Source: Melioribacter roseus (GTDB lineage Bacteria; Bacteroidota; Ignavibacteria; Ignavibacteriales; Melioribacteraceae). From it: 32,857 bases of DNA. Positions 5,543-27,213 of this stretch are shown here, piece after piece. The notes under the pieces are model-generated. The model was not told the DNA's origin, did not search any database, and was given only the letters and a program-made list of their open reading frames with translations. How positions within the stretch are numbered: the stretch's first letter is position 1; every line of letters begins with the position of its first letter. The stretch lies in assembly GCA_020726285.1 (NCBI GenBank), contig DYSW01000016.1, forward strand, positions 1 through 32,857. The letters run 5' to 3'. The position numbers and the translations under genes were made by a program.

Positions 5543-6526
5543 ATGTCAGAAGTACAATTATTAAAAGATATTAGAGCAAAAGCAAAAACACAAAAAAGAA
5601 TTGTGGTTCTACCCGAAAGTCACGATGAAAGAGTTTTGAAAGCTGCTGAAATGATAATCGCGGAAGGTTTTGCATCAGTTATTACAATTGGGAATGAAGA
5701 AAAAATCTATGCAAAAGCAAATGAATTAAATTTAACATTAAACGGATTAAGAATATACAACCCCGAAAAATCTGAATTAACAAATGATTTTGCCAATTAC
5801 TTTTTCAATTTAAGAAAAAGCAAAGGAATTACTTACGAAGAAGCAAAAGCGACAATGAAAAAAGACTTGTTTTTTGGGGCAATGTTAGTTCGCGAAAATA
5901 TGGCACAAAGTTCTGTTGCTGGTTCAACTGCATCAACCGGAGATGTTCTGCGGGCTGCTTTTCAGGTTGTTGGAATGGACGAAGGAATTTCGATTGTTTC
6001 AAGCTTCTTTTTGATGATTTTTCCAGAACGAGTTTTTAGTTTTGCCGATTGTGCAGTTGTGCCAAATCCAAATGCGCAACAATTGGCTGATATTGCAATA
6101 ACTACAGCCGATAATCACAAAATTCTAACTGGCGAAGAACCACATGTTGCAATGTTGTCGTTTTCAACAATGGGAAGCGCCAAACACGAATTGGTTGACA
6201 AAGTTTTGGAAGCTACAAAAATAGCGAAACAAAAACGTCCAGATTTATCGCTCGATGGTGAATTGCAATTTGATGCTGCAATTATCGATTCCATCGGTAA
6301 ACGCAAAGCACCACAAAGTTCTGTTGCTGGAAGAGCAAATGTGCTAGCTTTTCCAGACTTGAATTCTGGAAATATCGGCTACAAAATTGCCGAAAGACTT
6401 GGTGGAGCAATTGCAGTTGGACCAATTGTTCAGGGCTTGAAAAAACCTTTGTTCGATTTAAGTCGTGGTTGTAGTGTAGAAGATATTGTAAATACTGCAG
6501 CCATTTCTTGTTTAATGGCAAAATAG
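5543..6526 (+). CDS. pta: Phosphate acetyltransferase
   Basis: The enzyme interconverts acetyl-CoA plus phosphate with acetyl phosphate plus CoA, the first step of the acetate pathway, in the cytoplasm. At 327 residues it has the length of the short, single-domain form. Recognisable segments are RIVVLPESHDERVLKAA near the N-terminus, the substrate-site region SVAGSTASTGDVLRAAFQVVG, and PNPNAQQLADIAI followed later by GELQFDAAI and the C-terminal VNTAAI. The start is preceded by AGAGGAAA, a good ribosome-binding site. No acetate kinase gene is within the window. It is transcribed alone and shares a bidirectional terminator with the convergent sdh operon. Confidence 0.93.
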   Translation: MSEVQLLKDIRAKAKTQKRIVVLPESHDERVLKAAEMIIAEGFASVITIGNEEKIYAKANELNLTLNGLRIYNPEKSELTNDFANYFFNLRKSKGITYEEAKATMKKDLFFGAMLVRENMAQSSVAGSTASTGDVLRAAFQVVGMDEGISIVSSFFLMIFPERVFSFADCAVVPNPNAQQLADIAITTADNHKILTGEEPHVAMLSFSTMGSAKHELVDKVLEATKIAKQKRPDLSLDGELQFDAAIIDSIGKRKAPQSSVAGRANVLAFPDLNSGNIGYKIAERLGGAIAVGPIVQGLKKPLFDLSRGCSVEDIVNTAAISCLMAK

Positions 6527-6611: not shown

Positions 6612-7382
6612 TCAAAAATGTAAAGCGTGCGAACTAATTTTAGCATTCAAGAAATCTCGATTCATTCGCGCAATATTTGTAATTGAAACACCTTTTGGAC
6701 ATTCAGCTTCGCAAGCATAAGTATTTGTGCAACTACCAAATCCCATTTCATCCATTGTATTAACCATTGCTTGAACTCTATCATATCGTTCTAGTTGACC
6801 TTGAGGAAGAACTGCAAATTGTGAAACTTTGGCGCTTACAAATAGCATTGCAGAAGCATTCTTACAAGCAGCAACGCAAGCTCCACAACCAATGCATTCA
6901 GCCGCTTCAATAGCAATAGTAGCCGTTTCTTTAGAGATTGGATGAATGTTTGCGTCTGGGGCACTTCCTGTATTAATAGAAATGAAACCACCAGATTGAA
7001 TAATTTTATCCAAAGGTGAGCGATCGACAATTAAATCTTTAATGATATTATAAGCTTTTGCGCGGAATGGTTCAATATATAGATTTTCACCATTTTTGAA
7101 TGTTCGCATATGCAATTGGCATGTAGCAATTTTAGGCAAAGGTCCGTGTGGATGTCCGTTAACAACAACACCACAAGTTCCGCAAATTCCTTCACGGCAA
7201 TCACTTTCAAATGCAATTGGTCTTTCGCCTTTTGCTTCTAAAGTATTATTTAGTTCATCTAACATTTCGAGAATAGAAGCATCTGGCGAAGTAGAAACCT
7301 TAAATTCATCGAATCTACCTTCAGTAGATGGATTTTCTTGTCTCCAAATATTCAAAGTTAAATTGATATTATGATTTTCCAT
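6612..7382 (-). CDS. sdhB: Succinate dehydrogenase/fumarate reductase iron-sulfur subunit
   Basis: This subunit carries electrons between the flavoprotein and the membrane cytochrome. The 256-residue protein has cysteine sets for three clusters: Cys62, Cys67, Cys70 and Cys88 for the 2Fe-2S cluster (CREGICGTCG motif), Cys163/166/169/173 in CIGCGACVAAC, and Cys218/224/228 in CTNTYACEAECP. Its nearest relatives are the subunits that work with single-polypeptide cytochrome b558 anchors. The ATG overlaps the sdhA stop codon by one base (TAATG), which suggests translational coupling. It is the last gene of sdhC-sdhA-sdhB and is followed by the shared terminator. Whether the complex runs as a dehydrogenase or a fumarate reductase cannot be told from sequence alone. 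Confidence 0.95.
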   Translation of the reverse strand: MENHNINLTLNIWRQENPSTEGRFDEFKVSTSPDASILEMLDELNNTLEAKGERPIAFESDCREGICGTCGVVVNGHPHGPLPKIATCQLHMRTFKNGENLYIEPFRAKAYNIIKDLIVDRSPLDKIIQSGGFISINTGSAPDANIHPISKETATIAIEAAECIGCGACVAACKNASAMLFVSAKVSQFAVLPQGQLERYDRVQAMVNTMDEMGFGSCTNTYACEAECPKGVSITNIARMNRDFLNAKISSHALHF

Positions 7383-9292
7383 TACTTGTAGCTCCTTGTT
7401 GCTAATTTTACATATTCAAAGGCAAGTGGTTCTTTATTCAATTCCCATTGTCCAACATTTTTGAAATCCCACGCAGAAACGGAAGCATATTCTTCATCAT
7501 TTCTTAATGCTTCGCCTTCTTCGGTTTGATATTCTTCTCTAAAATGACCACCGCAAGATTCGTTTCTGTTTAACGCATCAATTGCCATTAGTTCACCAAG
7601 TTCAAGAAAATCAGCAACTCTTCCGGCTCGCTCAAGTGTTTGGTTAAGATCTTTATCTTGCCCAACCACATTTACATCTTTCCAGAATTCTTCTCGTAAA
7701 GCTGAAATTTCGGAAATTGCTTCTTTTAAGCCTTTTTCGTTTCTTTCCATACCTACTTTGTCCCACATAATCTGACCAAGTCGTTTGTGGATACTATCAA
7801 CAGTTTGCTTTCCTTTAATTGACATAAGTTGTATAACTTGTTCTTTCACTGCATTTTCTGATTCAACGAACGCAGGATGTTCGATTGTAACTTTAGCTGG
7901 TTTTTCAGTGCTAAAATAATTTCCAAGTGTGTAGGGAATTACAAAATAACCATCAGCCAAACCTTGCATAAGTGCCGAAGCTCCAAGTCGGTTTGCTCCG
8001 TGATCTGAAAAATTTGCTTCGCCTAAAACAAATAGTCCTGGAACATTGCTCATCAAATTATAATCAACCCACAATCCACCCATTGTGTAATGTGGAGCTG
8101 GATAAATTTGCATAGGAATTTTGTATGGATTTTCGCCTGTGATATTTTGGTACATATCGAACAAATTTCCATAACGTTCGCGAATTACGTTTTCGCCAAG
8201 TCTGTTGATTGCATTACTAAAATCGAGATAAACGGAATTATTGCCTTTTACTCCGCGACCTTCATCGCAAGCTTCTTTTGCACTTCTGGAAGAAATATCA
8301 CGTGGGGAAAGATTTCCGAACGAAGGATATTTTCTTTCGAGATAGTAATCTCGCTCTAATTCTGGAATGTCAGTTGCTTCACGCATATCATTTTTTTGCT
8401 TCGATACCCAAATTCGTCCATCGTTACGCAAACTTTCGCTCATCAAAACTCGTTTGGATTGTAATTCTCCGTGAATTGGTAAACTTGTTGGGTGAATTTG
8501 AGTGTAGCAAGGATTTGCAAAAGCAGCACCTTTTTTGTGAGCTCGCCAAACCGCTGTTGCATTAGAATTCATTGCACTTGTTGAAAGATAGAACACTCTG
8601 GAATAACCACCAGTAGCTAAAATTACTGCTTGTGCGGAATATCTTTCGGTTTCGCCAGTTAAAAGATTTCGAACAATAATTCCTTTAGCTTGTCCATCTA
8701 CAATTACAACGTCAAGCATTTCGCGGTGTGTGTACATTTCAACAGTTTTTAAACCAATTTGACGAGAAAGTGAAGAATAAGCACCAAGAAGAAGTTGTTG
8801 TCCTGTTTCACCGCGTGCATAAAAAGTTCTTGAAACTTGAGCACCACCGAATGAACGATTGGCTAAAGTTCCACCATATTCACGTGCAAACGGAACTCCC
8901 TGAGCAACAGCTTGATCAATGATATTTCCGCTTACTTCAGCTAATCTGTATGTATTTGCTTCGCGGGAACGGAAATCTCCGCCTTTAATTGTGTCGTAGA
9001 AAAGTCTAAAATCGGAATCGCCATCATTTTGGTAATTTTTCGAAGCGTTAATTCCACCCTGTGCAGCTATTGAATGTGCTCTTCGTGGGCTATCGTGAAA
9101 AGTAAACGCTTTTACTTTATAGCCAAGTTCGGCTAAAGTTGCGGCTGCGGAAGCTCCAGCTAATCCTGTACCAACAACAATTACATCATATTTCCTTTTA
9201 TTTGATGGATTCACAAGTTTCATATTGAATTTGTGATTTGTCCACTTTTGCGAAATATGTCCTTCCGGAATTTTTGCATCTAATTTAATCAT
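7382..9292 (-). CDS. sdhA: Succinate dehydrogenase/fumarate reductase flavoprotein subunit
   Basis: This is the catalytic subunit, oxidising succinate to fumarate with covalently bound FAD. The 636-residue protein has the dinucleotide motif GTGLAG (residues 41-46), the FAD-attachment motif HSIAAQGG with His73, the substrate-loop [15 protein letters not shown], and [18 protein letters not shown] take the start at the ATG at 9292, which overlaps the sdhC stop by one base (TAATG); the frame stays open for 23 more codons upstream, but those lie inside sdhC and read as an unrelated basic stretch. A glutamate-rich C-terminal third with [12 protein letters not shown] is as expected. It acts at the cytoplasmic face of the inner membrane. 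Confidence 0.96.
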
Positions 9293-10094: not shown

Positions 10095-10223
10095 GATGTT
10101 TTTATCTTATTTTAATCCAATTGTTTATTAACTTACAATTAATAATAGAATATTCATAAATATCTAAACTTTCATATGATTTTTCTGAAAATCTAAAAAC
10201 CAATAAAAAAATATGAGATTTTA

Positions 10224-11783
10224 ATGTTAAAAAGAATAATGACATCATTAAAGACGCAGATAATTATTGGCTTAGTTCTTGGCGTTAGCGTATTGGTATT
10301 ATCAATAGTATGGATTTTCAGTCAGATTTTGAAAGAGAATCTTCAAATTTCAGTTGCTAAAGACAAAAAAGCAATTGAAATGAATTATGAAGATCGATTA
10401 AGCCAAAGAATTGGGTTATTAAATAGATCATTAGAAATGATAATGGGAAACAAAACCGTTATGAGAGCATTTTCAGAAAGGGATAGAGATGCCTTAATTT
10501 CGGAATTGCTTGAAGATTACGAAACAAAGTTGAAAAAACAGGGAATTGTTCAATTTCAATTCCACACTCCAGATAACCATTCCTTTTTACGATTACATCA
10601 ACCAGCAAAATTTGGCGATGATTTATCTTCGTTCAGGCAAACGGTTGTTAGATGTAATGCAACTAAAAAACAAATTACAGGTTTGGAAATAGGAAAATTT
10701 GGTCCTGGAATTAGAATTGTTTATCCAGTAATTATTAATGAAATTCATTACGGTTCTATTGAATTTGGAGTAGAATTAGAAGGGCTGCTTAAATCAATTG
10801 CTGAAGAATTTAATGTCGATTATTCTATCGGACTTAAAACAGATTTAGTCAAAAATGCTGAATTCAAAAAGCAAGAAACTGATAAAGAAATTGGAGAATA
10901 CATTTTTATCTACGAACCAACAGAAGATTTACAAGAAATAATTGCCAAATATCCGCCTTCTGATAGCATACATATAGTAGAACGAAACGGCAAAATGTTT
11001 TCGTTTTTTTATATCCCAATGAAAGATTTTGATGGAAAACAAATTGGATATATTGTAATAAATGAAGATCTAACTGCTGTTTATGAAAGTAAGTATAGCA
11101 GTTTAAGAAAAGTTGGAATATTTACAACGGTATTTGTAGGAATTTTTCTTCTCCTAGCTGCTTTATGGATTACAAGAAATATTACAACTCCAATTTCAAA
11201 AAGTGCTAATTTTGCCACTGATATCAAAAACGGAAATTTTGATGCAACTATTTTAGTTAAATCAAGAAATGAAATTGGTCAACTTGCTGAAGCATTATTA
11301 GCAATGAAAACAAATTTAGTACAAATGTTTGATGAAGTAAGAAAACTTGCCGAAAGAACTATAAAAGCTACAAAAGAAATTGGCGAAATGATAGTTGAAA
11401 TTCAAAAAGAAAGTGCGCAAGCAAATAATTCTGTTGATTCTGCCAACGAATCAGTAAATGTTGGAAAAATTAAAACCGAAGAAGTTGAAATTGCACTTAA
11501 CGAAATTTTGGGTGGTACAGAAAAAGTTGAAAATGAAATTGCTCAATTAGCAACCGCAAGCGAAGAAGAATCTTCTACAGCAAGAGAAATTGCACATAAT
11601 ATGGAAGTGATAAATAATGTTGCACAGGAAACAGCTTCTGGAATTCACCAAATTGCTCATGCATCTGAAGATTTAATGAGATTAACAGAAAATCTAAAAG
11701 ATATGATTTCTTCCTTTAAGATAGGTCGTGATGTTGATGTAAAAAGAAAGTTGAAAACAAATGAGTTAAAATTGAAAAAGTAA
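10224..11783 (+). CDS. Chemoreceptor-like protein with dCache sensor and HAMP but a truncated signalling domain
   Basis: The 519-residue protein has TM1 (about 11-34), a large periplasmic double-Cache sensor (about 40-290; FHTPDNHSFLRLHQP, FGDDLSSFRQTV and GLEIGKFGPGIRIVYPV match the dCache_3 type), TM2 (about 296-316) and a HAMP domain (about 317-369). What follows is only the descending half of a methyl-accepting signalling domain: DEVRKLAERTIKATKEIGEMI, then ATASEEESSTAREIA and ETASGIHQIA. The ascending helix and the hairpin tip, which should contain the QTNLLALNAAIEAARAGE-type CheA/CheW contact site, are absent. The join falls at residue 369/370, near base 11331. The frame is intact, so it may still be expressed, but CheA control looks impossible. 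No che genes are near. It ends at a strong terminator. Confidence 0.85.
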   Translation: MLKRIMTSLKTQIIIGLVLGVSVLVLSIVWIFSQILKENLQISVAKDKKAIEMNYEDRLSQRIGLLNRSLEMIMGNKTVMRAFSERDRDALISELLEDYETKLKKQGIVQFQFHTPDNHSFLRLHQPAKFGDDLSSFRQTVVRCNATKKQITGLEIGKFGPGIRIVYPVIINEIHYGSIEFGVELEGLLKSIAEEFNVDYSIGLKTDLVKNAEFKKQETDKEIGEYIFIYEPTEDLQEIIAKYPPSDSIHIVERNGKMFSFFYIPMKDFDGKQIGYIVINEDLTAVYESKYSSLRKVGIFTTVFVGIFLLLAALWITRNITTPISKSANFATDIKNGNFDATILVKSRNEIGQLAEALLAMKTNLVQMFDEVRKLAERTIKATKEIGEMIVEIQKESAQANNSVDSANESVNVGKIKTEEVEIALNEILGGTEKVENEIAQLATASEEESSTAREIAHNMEVINNVAQETASGIHQIAHASEDLMRLTENLKDMISSFKIGRDVDVKRKLKTNELKLKK

Positions 11784-11803
11784 TCGCAGTTAGATATTTA
11801 ATT

Positions 11804-11843
11804 AAGTCCGAAAATGAATTAGTTTGTTTTCGGACTTTTTTTT
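11804..11843 (+). terminator. Rho-independent terminator after the chemoreceptor-like gene
   Basis: AAGTCCGAAAA (11804-11814) pairs perfectly with TTTTCGGACTT (11827-11837) across a 12-nt loop and runs into an eight-base T tract. It lies 21 nt after the stop codon. Confidence 0.9.
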
Positions 11844-11864
11844 GAGATAAAATAAGGGAAAGTA

Positions 11865-12068
11865 TTAAAAAGTGCCGAAATAGATGGTTTTTCCAGTTGG
11901 AAATTCAGAGCATGATTTTGGTTCGATGGTTGCCCTAAAAAGCTCAATTTCTTCAAAAGGAATTAATGGAATTTCAGATAAATCATAAAAATTTTGATTG
12001 TTTGCTGGCTGAATAATTCCAATTGAAAAAGATTGTCCTTTACTTATTGTCCAAAATTGAAGAATTTT
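11865..12068 (-). pseudogene. Remnant of an RskA-type anti-sigma factor (C-terminal part)
   Basis: On the minus strand an open frame without a start reads KILQFWTISKGQSF, then SIGIIQPANN, and near its end ATIEPKSCSEFPTGKTIYFG before a TAA at 11865. That is the C-terminal signature of RskA-family anti-sigma factors: a YQLW-like strand with SKGQ, then a VTLEP-GGS-PTG-like end. The N-terminal zinc-finger or cytoplasmic domain and the transmembrane segment are missing. The sequence begins exactly where the sigma-factor remnant ends, in a different frame, so a deletion has joined the two. The family assignment is from motif recognition only. Confidence 0.65.
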
Positions 12069-12345
12069 TTCTTATCACGAAGATTATATAATGCCGAATT
12101 AATTTTGCTGCGAACGGTTTGAATTGGGTATGATAAATTTATCTTCATATTCATTATCATAATAAGTTGAAGAGGAAAGGGAATTTCGATTTCTACGGGA
12201 GGCTATCAACAGCTCGGTTTCTTGCCAAAGCAATCAACATTGAATAAGGATTATCGGCTTCGTTGAGTAAAATTGCGGTTTTCTTCCAAATTATTAAAAA
12301 TACTTTTTCAAGCAAAGCAGCAGCAATCTCTTCATTACTTGTAAT
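12060..12345 (-). pseudogene. Remnant of an ECF (sigma-70 family) sigma factor
   Basis: Minus-strand pieces in successive frames read NEEIAAALLEKVFLIIWKKT and NPYSMLIALARNRAVDSL (both sigma region 2), then, after a frameshift near 12200, RRNRNSLSSSTYYDNEYED, and after another near 12110, SKINSALYNLRDKKKF, which resembles the start of region 4. The FLIIWKK and ARNRAVDSL signatures are typical of SigK-like ECF factors. There is no start codon, the N-terminus is gone, and most of region 4 is missing where it runs into the anti-sigma remnant. This cannot make a working sigma factor. The pair accounts for most of the gene-free stretch 11844-12380; I see nothing further in it. Confidence 0.72.
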
Positions 12346-12380
12346 TTATTTTAGATTTAATATAAATTCTAATTAAATAT

Positions 12381-13199
12381 TTAGTTAGCAAAATGTTTAA
12401 GATAAATTAATACAAAAGGCGAAGCAAAAATCAAGGAATCAAATCTATCAAAAATTCCACCGTGTCCTGGTATTATATTTGACGAATCTTTAACATCGGC
12501 ATCTCTTTTCATCAGACTTTCAGACAAATCGCCAATTTGACCAAAAATCCCGATTATCACGCCAATAATTAATGAATCTTTTATTGATAGAAAAGTAATA
12601 AGATATTCACGTAAGACTATAATTGAAATAATTCCGAAAACAAATCCAGCGACTGCTCCTTCCCAACTTTTTTTTGGGCTTACTCGTACAAATAAACGGT
12701 GTTTTCCGATTGCAGTTCCAATAAAATATGCAGCCGAATCAATTACCCAAAGTGTAACTAAAATTGAAATAATCAACAATCCACCTTGTTCGTAAAAAAA
12801 AGTCCCATAAAATTCACGAATTTGAATAAGTGTAGTTGTAAGCAATCCGGGATAAAAAATTGCAAGTAACGTCGCTCCAATATTTTGAATTGCCGAACCG
12901 TTATTTCTAAAAAGTTCAAATAGAATCACTATTATTACTGAGGCAAGAATGATAGTTTCTGGTTCAACATATTTGAAATATGTATTTAGAACAAGTGTGT
13001 TAACAATCACCAATCCTAAATGCTTGGCTACATAAATTCCCTTTTTTTCAACCATTTTTGAAAATTCAGAAAAAGCGAAAAGTGCAATTATCATTACAAA
13101 TATAAGAAAAACCCATTTTCCGTAATAACTTGCAAAAATTAGAAAGGGAATTGCTATAACGGCGACTAATATTCTAATAAATCTGTTGCTTAATTCCAT
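12381..13199 (-). CDS. cdsA: Phosphatidate cytidylyltransferase
   Basis: The enzyme makes CDP-diacylglycerol from phosphatidate and CTP, the entry point to phospholipid head-group synthesis, in the inner membrane. The 272-residue protein has about eight hydrophobic helices and the complete CDS signature near the C-terminus: SPKKSWEG (174-181), DLSES, then KRDADVKDSSNIIPGHGG and FDRFDS. The ATG at 13199 is preceded by AGGATA. It starts 6 nt after the DUF2007 gene, so CPBP protease, DUF2007 and cdsA form one minus-strand operon with this gene last. Confidence 0.95.
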   Translation of the reverse strand: MELSNRFIRILVAVIAIPFLIFASYYGKWVFLIFVMIIALFAFSEFSKMVEKKGIYVAKHLGLVIVNTLVLNTYFKYVEPETIILASVIIVILFELFRNNGSAIQNIGATLLAIFYPGLLTTTLIQIREFYGTFFYEQGGLLIISILVTLWVIDSAAYFIGTAIGKHRLFVRVSPKKSWEGAVAGFVFGIISIIVLREYLITFLSIKDSLIIGVIIGIFGQIGDLSESLMKRDADVKDSSNIIPGHGGIFDRFDSLIFASPFVLIYLKHFAN

Positions 13200-25813: not shown

Positions 25814-25937
25814 TACTTTTTAATAAAGTAGAAGTGTTTTCAGATTAAAAGCCAAACTTGGAAAAGTTGTAATAACGGAAAAAAACAATAATTTATAAAT
25901 TGCTTTTGTCATTTTAGACTCAAATCTTTGTTTTATT

Positions 25938-26288
25938 TTATATTCTTTTAACAAGATATCTGATAATTTCTGCGTGTTCTATTGTAATTAAACCACCGCA
26001 ATTTGAAGTTTCGAAAAGTGAATTGATAATTGGAAGGAAGTTATCAATTTTTTCTTTGCCATCAACTATTTCAATAATAATTGGCAAATCTTCAGATAAT
26101 CTTAAAATTTTGGTTGTGTGAATTCTACTTGTTCCACCAAAACCCATAATTCCTTTGTAAACAGTTGCCCCAGCTAATCCAAAATTTTTAGCTTCAAGAA
26201 CTATGCTTTCATAAAGCGGAATTGAATTAATTTTATCAGAATCACCGATAAAAACTCTAAGTAATTTTGCGTCTTTTTTAATTTCCAT
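25938..26288 (-). CDS. DUF190 protein
   Basis: This 116-residue PII-like protein of the DUF190 family has LLRVFIGDSDKINSIPLYESI, GLAGATVYKGIMGFGGTSRI and LRLSEDLPIIIEIVDGKEKI, followed by a C-terminal GGLITIEHAEII. DUF190 proteins are commonly encoded beside CrcB/FluC fluoride channels and may act in their regulation, though this is not demonstrated. The ATG at 26288 overlaps the fluC stop by one base (TGATG). The frame extends 55 codons further upstream, but that stretch lies inside fluC and is not family-like. Confidence 0.92.
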   Translation of the reverse strand: MEIKKDAKLLRVFIGDSDKINSIPLYESIVLEAKNFGLAGATVYKGIMGFGGTSRIHTTKILRLSEDLPIIIEIVDGKEKIDNFLPIINSLFETSNCGGLITIEHAEIIRYLVKRI

Positions 26289-26794: not shown

Positions 26795-27135
26795 TTATTG
26801 GAAAATCAACCAAGCCATTGCTTCTTCGCGAGTTTTTACTGAATTAATCTTTCTTACAGTAAACATATTAATTGCCGAAAGATAGCTCGCATACCTTCGG
26901 CACCAACAACTAAATGGCGTATTGCTCGAAGCAAATGAACAAATTATTTCATTTGTATCTTTTGAAAAAGCATCATTGAAACATCAGTTATTAACAAAAC
27001 ATTTTTAGGTGCGTGAGTTGTAATTTGTTTCTGTGGTTCCTTAAAAATGCGAATTGATTTTTCGGTTTGCAAGTTAGAAATATCGACCATATAAATTGTT
27101 TTACCTTTGTAGGGTTGACTTAGTAGTGCAGACAT
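26795..27135 (-). pseudogene. Frameshifted small STAS/SpoIIAA-like protein
   Basis: From an ATG at 27135 the frame reads YKGKTIYMVDISNLQTEKS and KNVLLITDVS, then shifts near 26975. The next frame reads NDAFSKDTNEIICSFASSNTPF and, after a middle section, VRKINSVKTREEAMAWLIFQ to a TAA at 26795. The middle is family-like only in a third frame (HLVVGAEGMRAIFRQLI), implying two compensating shifts near 26915 and 26880. Read together the pieces form a ~113-residue protein resembling small STAS-like proteins common in Bacteroidota and relatives (YKGK-IYY-DFSNL, LTDVS, NTP, AVVGAEGL, EEA-WL). At least three frameshifts make it non-functional as written, unless the sequence has errors. Confidence 0.65.
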
Positions 27136-27213
27136 TTTTTCTCGGATTTGTTAGTAACTAGTAAAATATTATCGAAATGATAACTCAAAATCTTCAATTC
27201 TGTAATTTTTTGT

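Follow-up and report, generated by a model that had tools for sequence, protein, structure and literature searches.

Remains of an ECF sigma factor gene and its membrane anti-sigma partner in a Melioribacter roseus genome

In the 32,857-nucleotide stretch of Melioribacter roseus DNA analysed here (the window), the gap between a methyl-accepting chemotaxis protein (MCP) gene (10224–11783, plus strand) and cdsA (12381–13199, minus strand) holds pieces of a sigma factor and of an anti-sigma factor in three frames. An earlier note, made from the sequence alone, read them as a fossil ECF sigma/RskA pair joined by deletion, and held that an envelope or stress regulon had thereby lost its regulator. 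What these pieces were, how and when they were broken, and whether anything is left of a regulon, are the questions that this locus raises.

Translation of the minus strand of 11784–12381 recovered all the peptides that had been quoted, in at least three frames. FLIIWKK and ARNRAVDSL share one frame, the RskA-like tail SKGQSFSIGII...GKTIYFGTF lies in a second, and the region 4 piece TVRS...NLRD in a third. The longest start-to-stop frames in the remnant are of 45 codons or fewer. Two pieces, the region 2 piece and the anti-sigma tail, were submitted to the domain libraries. Neither reached any Pfam model; NCBIfam sigma models matched the region 2 piece with a best E of 6e-5, far below their cut-offs, and NCBIfam returned no match for the anti-sigma tail.

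We then used the cdsA protein to search the window's own genome (G000) together with 57 relatives, 58 genomes in all, and found a same-genus genome, G001, whose cdsA product is 94% identical in amino acids to that of the window. Its locus (L038) carries, between cdsA and the succinate dehydrogenase genes, an intact sigma gene of 195 amino acids (L038:6388–6975) followed by an anti-sigma gene of 396 amino acids (6972–8162), with an overlap of 4 bp. This is the same place and order as the remnant, and the order of sigma then anti-sigma, which had been said to match living operons, is indeed that of the living pair. The G001 sigma consists of Sigma70 regions 2 and 4 only, in about 190 amino acids, which makes it an ECF sigma (PF04542, Sigma70_r2, and PF04545, Sigma70_r4, at 27.4 and 52.1 bits, over the Pfam cut-offs; TIGR02937, sigma70-ECF, at 70.6 bits against a cut-off of 42.9). 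The anti-sigma is of RskA type, with an RskA_C domain (PF10099; 46.0 bits against 29.4, E 7.8e-12, residues 275–388) beyond a single membrane helix predicted at residue 231 by simple hydropathy. Its N-terminal block is conserved across 28 aligned orthologues. No RskA chain was found among solved structures, either with the G001 anti-sigma protein or with a profile.

In tblastn against the window's genome, the intact G001 sigma matched 12196–12354 (E 6.7e-21, 79% identity) and 12111–12209 (E 1.6e-9, 67% identity), and the remnant ends at about 12353, slightly past the 12345 given earlier. Minus strand 11865–12353 thus holds the remains of an ECF sigma gene and of an RskA_C-type anti-sigma gene that overlapped its end, closed by a stop codon at 11865–11867. 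On the bare fragments Pfam gave no match, and NCBIfam was weak for one of the two. At the level of sequence, then, the identity of the remnant is proven by the intact relative, domain libraries alone being insufficient, and the collinear G001 locus rules out chance resemblance. The features are as follows, G001 coordinates being those of L038.

12381–13199, minus strand: intact cdsA-like cytidylyltransferase gene, next to the pair on its upstream side, as in G001 (PF01148, E 2e-60; collinear with L038:5473–6291).
12352–12353, minus strand: deletion junction 1, 184 bp gone (about L038:6327–6510): candidate promoter, start codon and the first 41 or so sigma codons (block offset and junction alignment).
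12128–12353, minus strand: remnant of ECF sigma region 2 and the linker start, codons about 42–116 (90.3% DNA identity to L038:6509–6734; tblastn as above).
12197–12202, minus strand: 1-bp insertion in a C-rich run, which shifts the frame just after ARNRAVDSL (pairwise alignments).
12127–12128, minus strand: deletion junction 2, 167 bp gone, with sigma codons about 117–171, which are about half or more of the linker and most of region 4 (block offset and junction alignment; region borders from Pfam matches).
12072–12127, minus strand: remnant of the sigma region 4 end, TVRS...NLRD, codons about 171–190 (89.5% DNA identity to L038:6900–6956).
12070–12072, minus strand: deletion junction 3, 999 bp gone, with the last sigma codons and anti-sigma codons 1 to about 328 of 396, including the N-terminal part and the membrane helix (block offset and junction alignment).
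11865–12070, minus strand: what is left of the anti-sigma's extracytoplasmic tail, namely the end of RskA_C with the stop codon (part of the 86.3% DNA block matching L038:7957–8275).
11804–11837, plus strand: terminator-like hairpin that follows the dead gene and has a plus-strand T-run (hairpin scan).
10224–11783, plus strand: convergent MCP gene, absent from this place in G001 (dCache_3, HAMP and MCPsignal domains).

The window and G001 aligned by blastn in three collinear blocks of 227 bp (90.3%, 1e-84), 57 bp (89.5%, 3e-15) and 321 bp (86.3%, 4e-103). The surviving pieces are 86–90% identical to G001, the surrounding blocks 92% and cdsA 92.5% at the DNA level. Deletion lengths were taken as the change of offset between these blocks, and the junctions were resolved by alignment; the losses relative to G001 are 184, 167 and 999 bp and the gain is one base. 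A weak promoter-like site of G001 (L038:6339) falls within the first deletion, which removed the original start as well. The anti-sigma tail is also 3 bases shorter than in G001. Judged from these alignments, the window's lineage lost both genes through three deletions and a one-base insertion. With an intact orthologue in a close relative, disabling changes in the window and no other copy found, the remnant is a pseudogene pair, and we put the probability that this stretch is a recently dead two-gene regulatory unit, an ECF sigma with its membrane anti-sigma, at about 95%.

It is very improbable that the deletions and the extra base are assembly artefacts in an organism that has the intact pair. 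The window does come from a 140-contig assembly, and from one assembly only. However, the error would have to comprise three separate deletions and an insertion within 0.5 kb, whereas cdsA and sdhC align over their full length with 57 and 55 substitutions and the surrounding blocks keep their 92% identity. The remnants differ by about 10–14% from G001, so that a chimera with G001 is not the source, and the missing RskA_C part and a full sigma are found nowhere else in the assembly.

That the remnant has been kept for a new role (as a short regulatory RNA, as the 3' part of the cdsA transcript or as a small region 2 peptide) is extremely unlikely: a 40-codon ORF with a TTG start does lie in the region 2 frame (12315–12193), and an RskA remnant in Nocardia, often annotated as a pseudogene, still inhibits SigK according to the available text of PMC7509140, but that remnant is the N-terminal part, whereas here the outer tail survives without N-terminal part or helix, the candidate promoter is deleted, minus strand 11600–12600 has no E. 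coli-type promoter-like site (the type that the scan covered), and the best Rfam scores (21.5 bits against a gathering score of 45, and 20.5 against 38) come nowhere near an RNA gene.

We next considered the age of the loss from nonsynonymous/synonymous ratios between the window and G001, corrected for opportunity. The ratio is 0.44 for the sigma remnant (15 nonsynonymous and 11 synonymous changes; 0.40 and 0.63 in its two blocks) and 0.23 for the anti-sigma tail (9 and 12). Among the live neighbours it is 0.16 for cdsA, 0.15 for sdhC, 0.25 for a CAAX protease and 0.50 for a DUF2007 gene; the sigma remnant thus exceeds all of these except DUF2007. In a copy that had been dead for long, a higher ratio would be expected. 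The 15 residue differences were also checked against 38 orthologues. At five of them (75, 80, 92, 180 and 184) the window has the common residue of the family and G001 a rare one; at four (57, 181, 182 and 190, the last at the junction) G001 keeps the common residue and the window has the rare one; six are undecided. As the remnant shows no clear excess of amino-acid change over its live neighbours, the sequences suggest that death was recent, well after the split of the window and G001, and came mainly through deletions; the numbers are small. The age is uncertain, since the ratio of the sigma remnant rests on 26 changes and exceeds those of cdsA and sdhC.

No second copy of either gene was found elsewhere in the window's genome. 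RskA_C gave no match there even at E 1, and the best matches to the sigma are the fossil pieces themselves, with no intact copy found. Takeover by another sigma is possible, since seven genes with sigma region 2 remain in this genome. For one region 2 match (G000:C40, locus L004), a comparison of scores and lengths by eye showed no evident counterpart in G001. It is no obvious substitute: its protein and its neighbours differ, and it is absent from the strong matches to the G001 sigma. The window's genome measures 2.06 Mb; of the 58 compared, a single one, which is incomplete, is smaller.

The living pair is widespread. The sigma has an orthologue scoring at least 126 bits in 47 of the 58 genomes, and the best match below these scores 97 bits; because of this distribution we concluded that the pair is old. 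The 11 genomes that lack it are the window's own, G002, G006, G008, G013, G021, G023, G030, G039, G053 and G054, among which G002 (77%), G008 (88%), G013 (86%) and G023 (68%) are incomplete, and only G002 has an RskA_C match, near a contig end. Further losses of the pair in other genomes are likely. We read the surroundings at all 47 sigma loci. At 45, the next ORF lies on the sigma strand and begins between −26 and +12 bp from the end of the sigma ORF, and one membrane helix is predicted in 44 of these unfused ORFs (the exception is G011). RskA_C was found at E ≤0.01 in all 28 following ORFs scanned, a selection of the 45, and a genome-wide search found it in 39 of the 58 genomes, in 34 of them over the cut-off. 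By these counts, the outer RskA_C domain is less constant than the sigma.

At the two remaining loci (G031 and G045), sigma and anti-sigma form a single ORF, of 552 and 648 amino acids. Turned to the sigma strand, these ORFs lie at 5987–7645 of L154 (G031) and 3174–5120 of L218 (G045), and both run from the sigma through an N-terminal anti-sigma part and one predicted membrane helix to an outer tail. RskA_C is weak in G031 (22.4 bits, under the cut-off) and was not detected in G045. The two genomes belong to different families, and the ORFs are either natural membrane-tethered sigma factors or assembly slips. In G011 (L219, 2902–3887 on the sigma strand), a frameshift at about the helix splits the anti-sigma into ORFs of 165 and 162 amino acids while the sigma is open; this is either damage or a sequencing error. 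Four further anti-sigmas, in L168 (G037), L222 (G048), L176 (G035) and L221 (G046), end within about 60 residues of the helix start, with no room for an RskA_C domain.

Of 40 loci, 17 have alaS, recognised with the window's alanyl-tRNA synthetase, within the flanking sequence retrieved, and in 16 of them it is the divergent neighbour of the sigma. A PspC-domain gene stands beside the pair in three other genera checked (G007, G010 and G020); in G010, one of the loci with alaS, it is one of two genes convergent with the anti-sigma gene. Four genomes of this genus (the window's own, G001, G003 and G004) each gave a single PspC match, within a frame of 180–190 amino acids, and lack a gene with two PspC matches of the kind seen beside the pair in those three genera. 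G002 has no PspC match. There are only two pointers to the envelope, namely the membrane-spanning anti-sigma and the PspC-domain gene beside the pair in the three other genera.

Ahead of most sigma genes we observed a two-part motif, TTGATTTTT-N12-TTTA(C/G)TTTT. When spacers of 9–15 were allowed, 29 of 40 loci matched, and 27 of the 29 have a spacer of exactly 12; one of these 27, in L175, is far upstream and doubtful. From 26 spacer-12 sites, of which two are poor, we built a matrix and ran it over 487,081 bases (the window, L038 and L139–L176; L137 was left out). It gave 43 matches at 12 bits or more, and all 28 from 17.2 bits up lie at a sigma gene, including two where an over-long sigma ORF begins; the strongest match away from a sigma gene (16.9 bits) is inside an ORF. 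High scores at the training sites arise by construction, and the information lies in the fixed spacing and in the lack of strong matches elsewhere. Of the 11 exact motifs among the matches listed, 10 are at a sigma gene and one is elsewhere (G035:C1:2568183). A housekeeping promoter was rejected as the source of the motif: TTG-N20-TAnnTTTG occurs before 181 other genes 0 times in sense and 6 times in antisense, and TAnnTTTG alone 50 and 45 times. The 6 antisense cases may be the sigma promoter seen from its divergent neighbour.

With one mismatch allowed, the motif occurs 179 times in the 58 genomes and its reversed control 170 times; in the window's genome the counts are 3 and 3. As the motif is barely commoner than its control, no orphaned promoters could be named across the 58 genomes, and the proposal that an envelope or stress regulon lost its regulator is not borne out. 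From its placement, the motif resembles a promoter under autoregulation, of which close copies are few or absent. In G001 it is weak and differently spaced, and the circuit may therefore have been loosening already before the loss. The motif lies in the part deleted from the window.

SigK/RskA of Mycobacterium tuberculosis is the nearest known system, in which the sigma is sequestered at the membrane, released on a signal and activates its own expression; sigK precedes rskA, and RskA has a single membrane helix. The G001 pair shares this gene order, the single helix and the RskA_C domain of the partner, and SigK (4nqw_A) is, in sequence, the closest solved sigma structure (E 2.6e-13 with the G001 protein, 5e-30 with the family profile). 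It differs in that its anti-sigma matches no solved RskA chain, and both genes of the window are dead. The G001 sigma also has no cysteine, and each of the 45 unfused orthologues has 0 or 1, whereas two cysteines are conserved in 94% of ECF18 and 56% of ECF19 members (PMC7509140, in the text available). Judged by its sequence, the G001 sigma is thus not a SigK in the strict sense, although, by the same part of that source, the cysteines are not universal in ECF19. Natural damage to a sigK-rskA pair, as seen in the RskA truncations and variants of Nocardia, M. bovis and M. orygis, is the other likeness; there, by the available text of PMC7509140, the sigma remains active and is still subject to the RskA remnant or variant, whereas in the window both genes are destroyed.

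Judged by its anatomy, the living pair should work like SigK/RskA. In G001, as in most genomes of the order that were searched, the ECF sigma gene is followed by an overlapping or near-abutting gene for a single-pass membrane anti-sigma, whose outer part in G001 and many others has an RskA_C domain. As long as no signal arrives from outside, the anti-sigma would keep the sigma at the membrane; the signal would bring about destruction of the anti-sigma, and the sigma, once released, would guide RNA polymerase, probably to the sigma's own promoter among others, as the conserved motif suggests. With both genes lost from the window's lineage, neither transcription of the fragment from a promoter of its own nor a working protein would be expected, and the targets of the sigma would now be uninduced or under other control. 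Since both halves are gone, no unrestrained sigma remains, and the likely outcome for the targets is silence rather than constant expression.

The surroundings of the pair also differ between the two genomes. The hairpin at 11804–11837 would end the convergent MCP gene; as a terminator of the anti-sigma itself it was rejected, since its T-run is on the other strand. A similar hairpin with the T-run on the same side is present in G001 (sequences read by eye). Window 10142–11753, 1612 bp with the MCP gene, corresponds to 31 bp in G001, whose best-scoring match to the window's MCP is 34% identical. The MCP gene was either gained in the window's lineage or lost in G001; the T-run of the G001 hairpin, which faces the missing gene, is a weak hint of loss. 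An MCP-like match at G000:C8:3043–4161 has two stops inside it, whereas a similar one in G001 (C3:164–1291) has none, and it may be another gene in decay. Collinearity with G001 is broken or shifted at window 18358, 23146, about 25842–25946 and 32158; near the last, some 590 bp of G001 are missing from the window, and window 26810–27196 has about 390 bp against about 46 in G001.

We found no paper treating sigma factors together with their anti-sigma in Ignavibacteria, and none joining ECF anti-sigma factors with gene loss, deletion or pseudogenization. The loss is an ordinary case of gene decay that can be followed in unusual detail, and what it left is a genuine, apparently recent pair of pseudogenes of a familiar type. 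A wider view, which we offer tentatively and hold to be rather doubtful, is that of a self-contained sigma/anti-sigma circuit, widespread in the order, whose own promoter stands almost only before itself, which has been fused into a single membrane-tethered protein in two lineages and which others, this one recently, have discarded whole without evident replacement. Set side by side, the window's genome and G001 amount to a knock-out experiment done by nature on a pair retained in 47 of the 58 genomes, and the conserved motif supplies a testable promoter for this sigma group.
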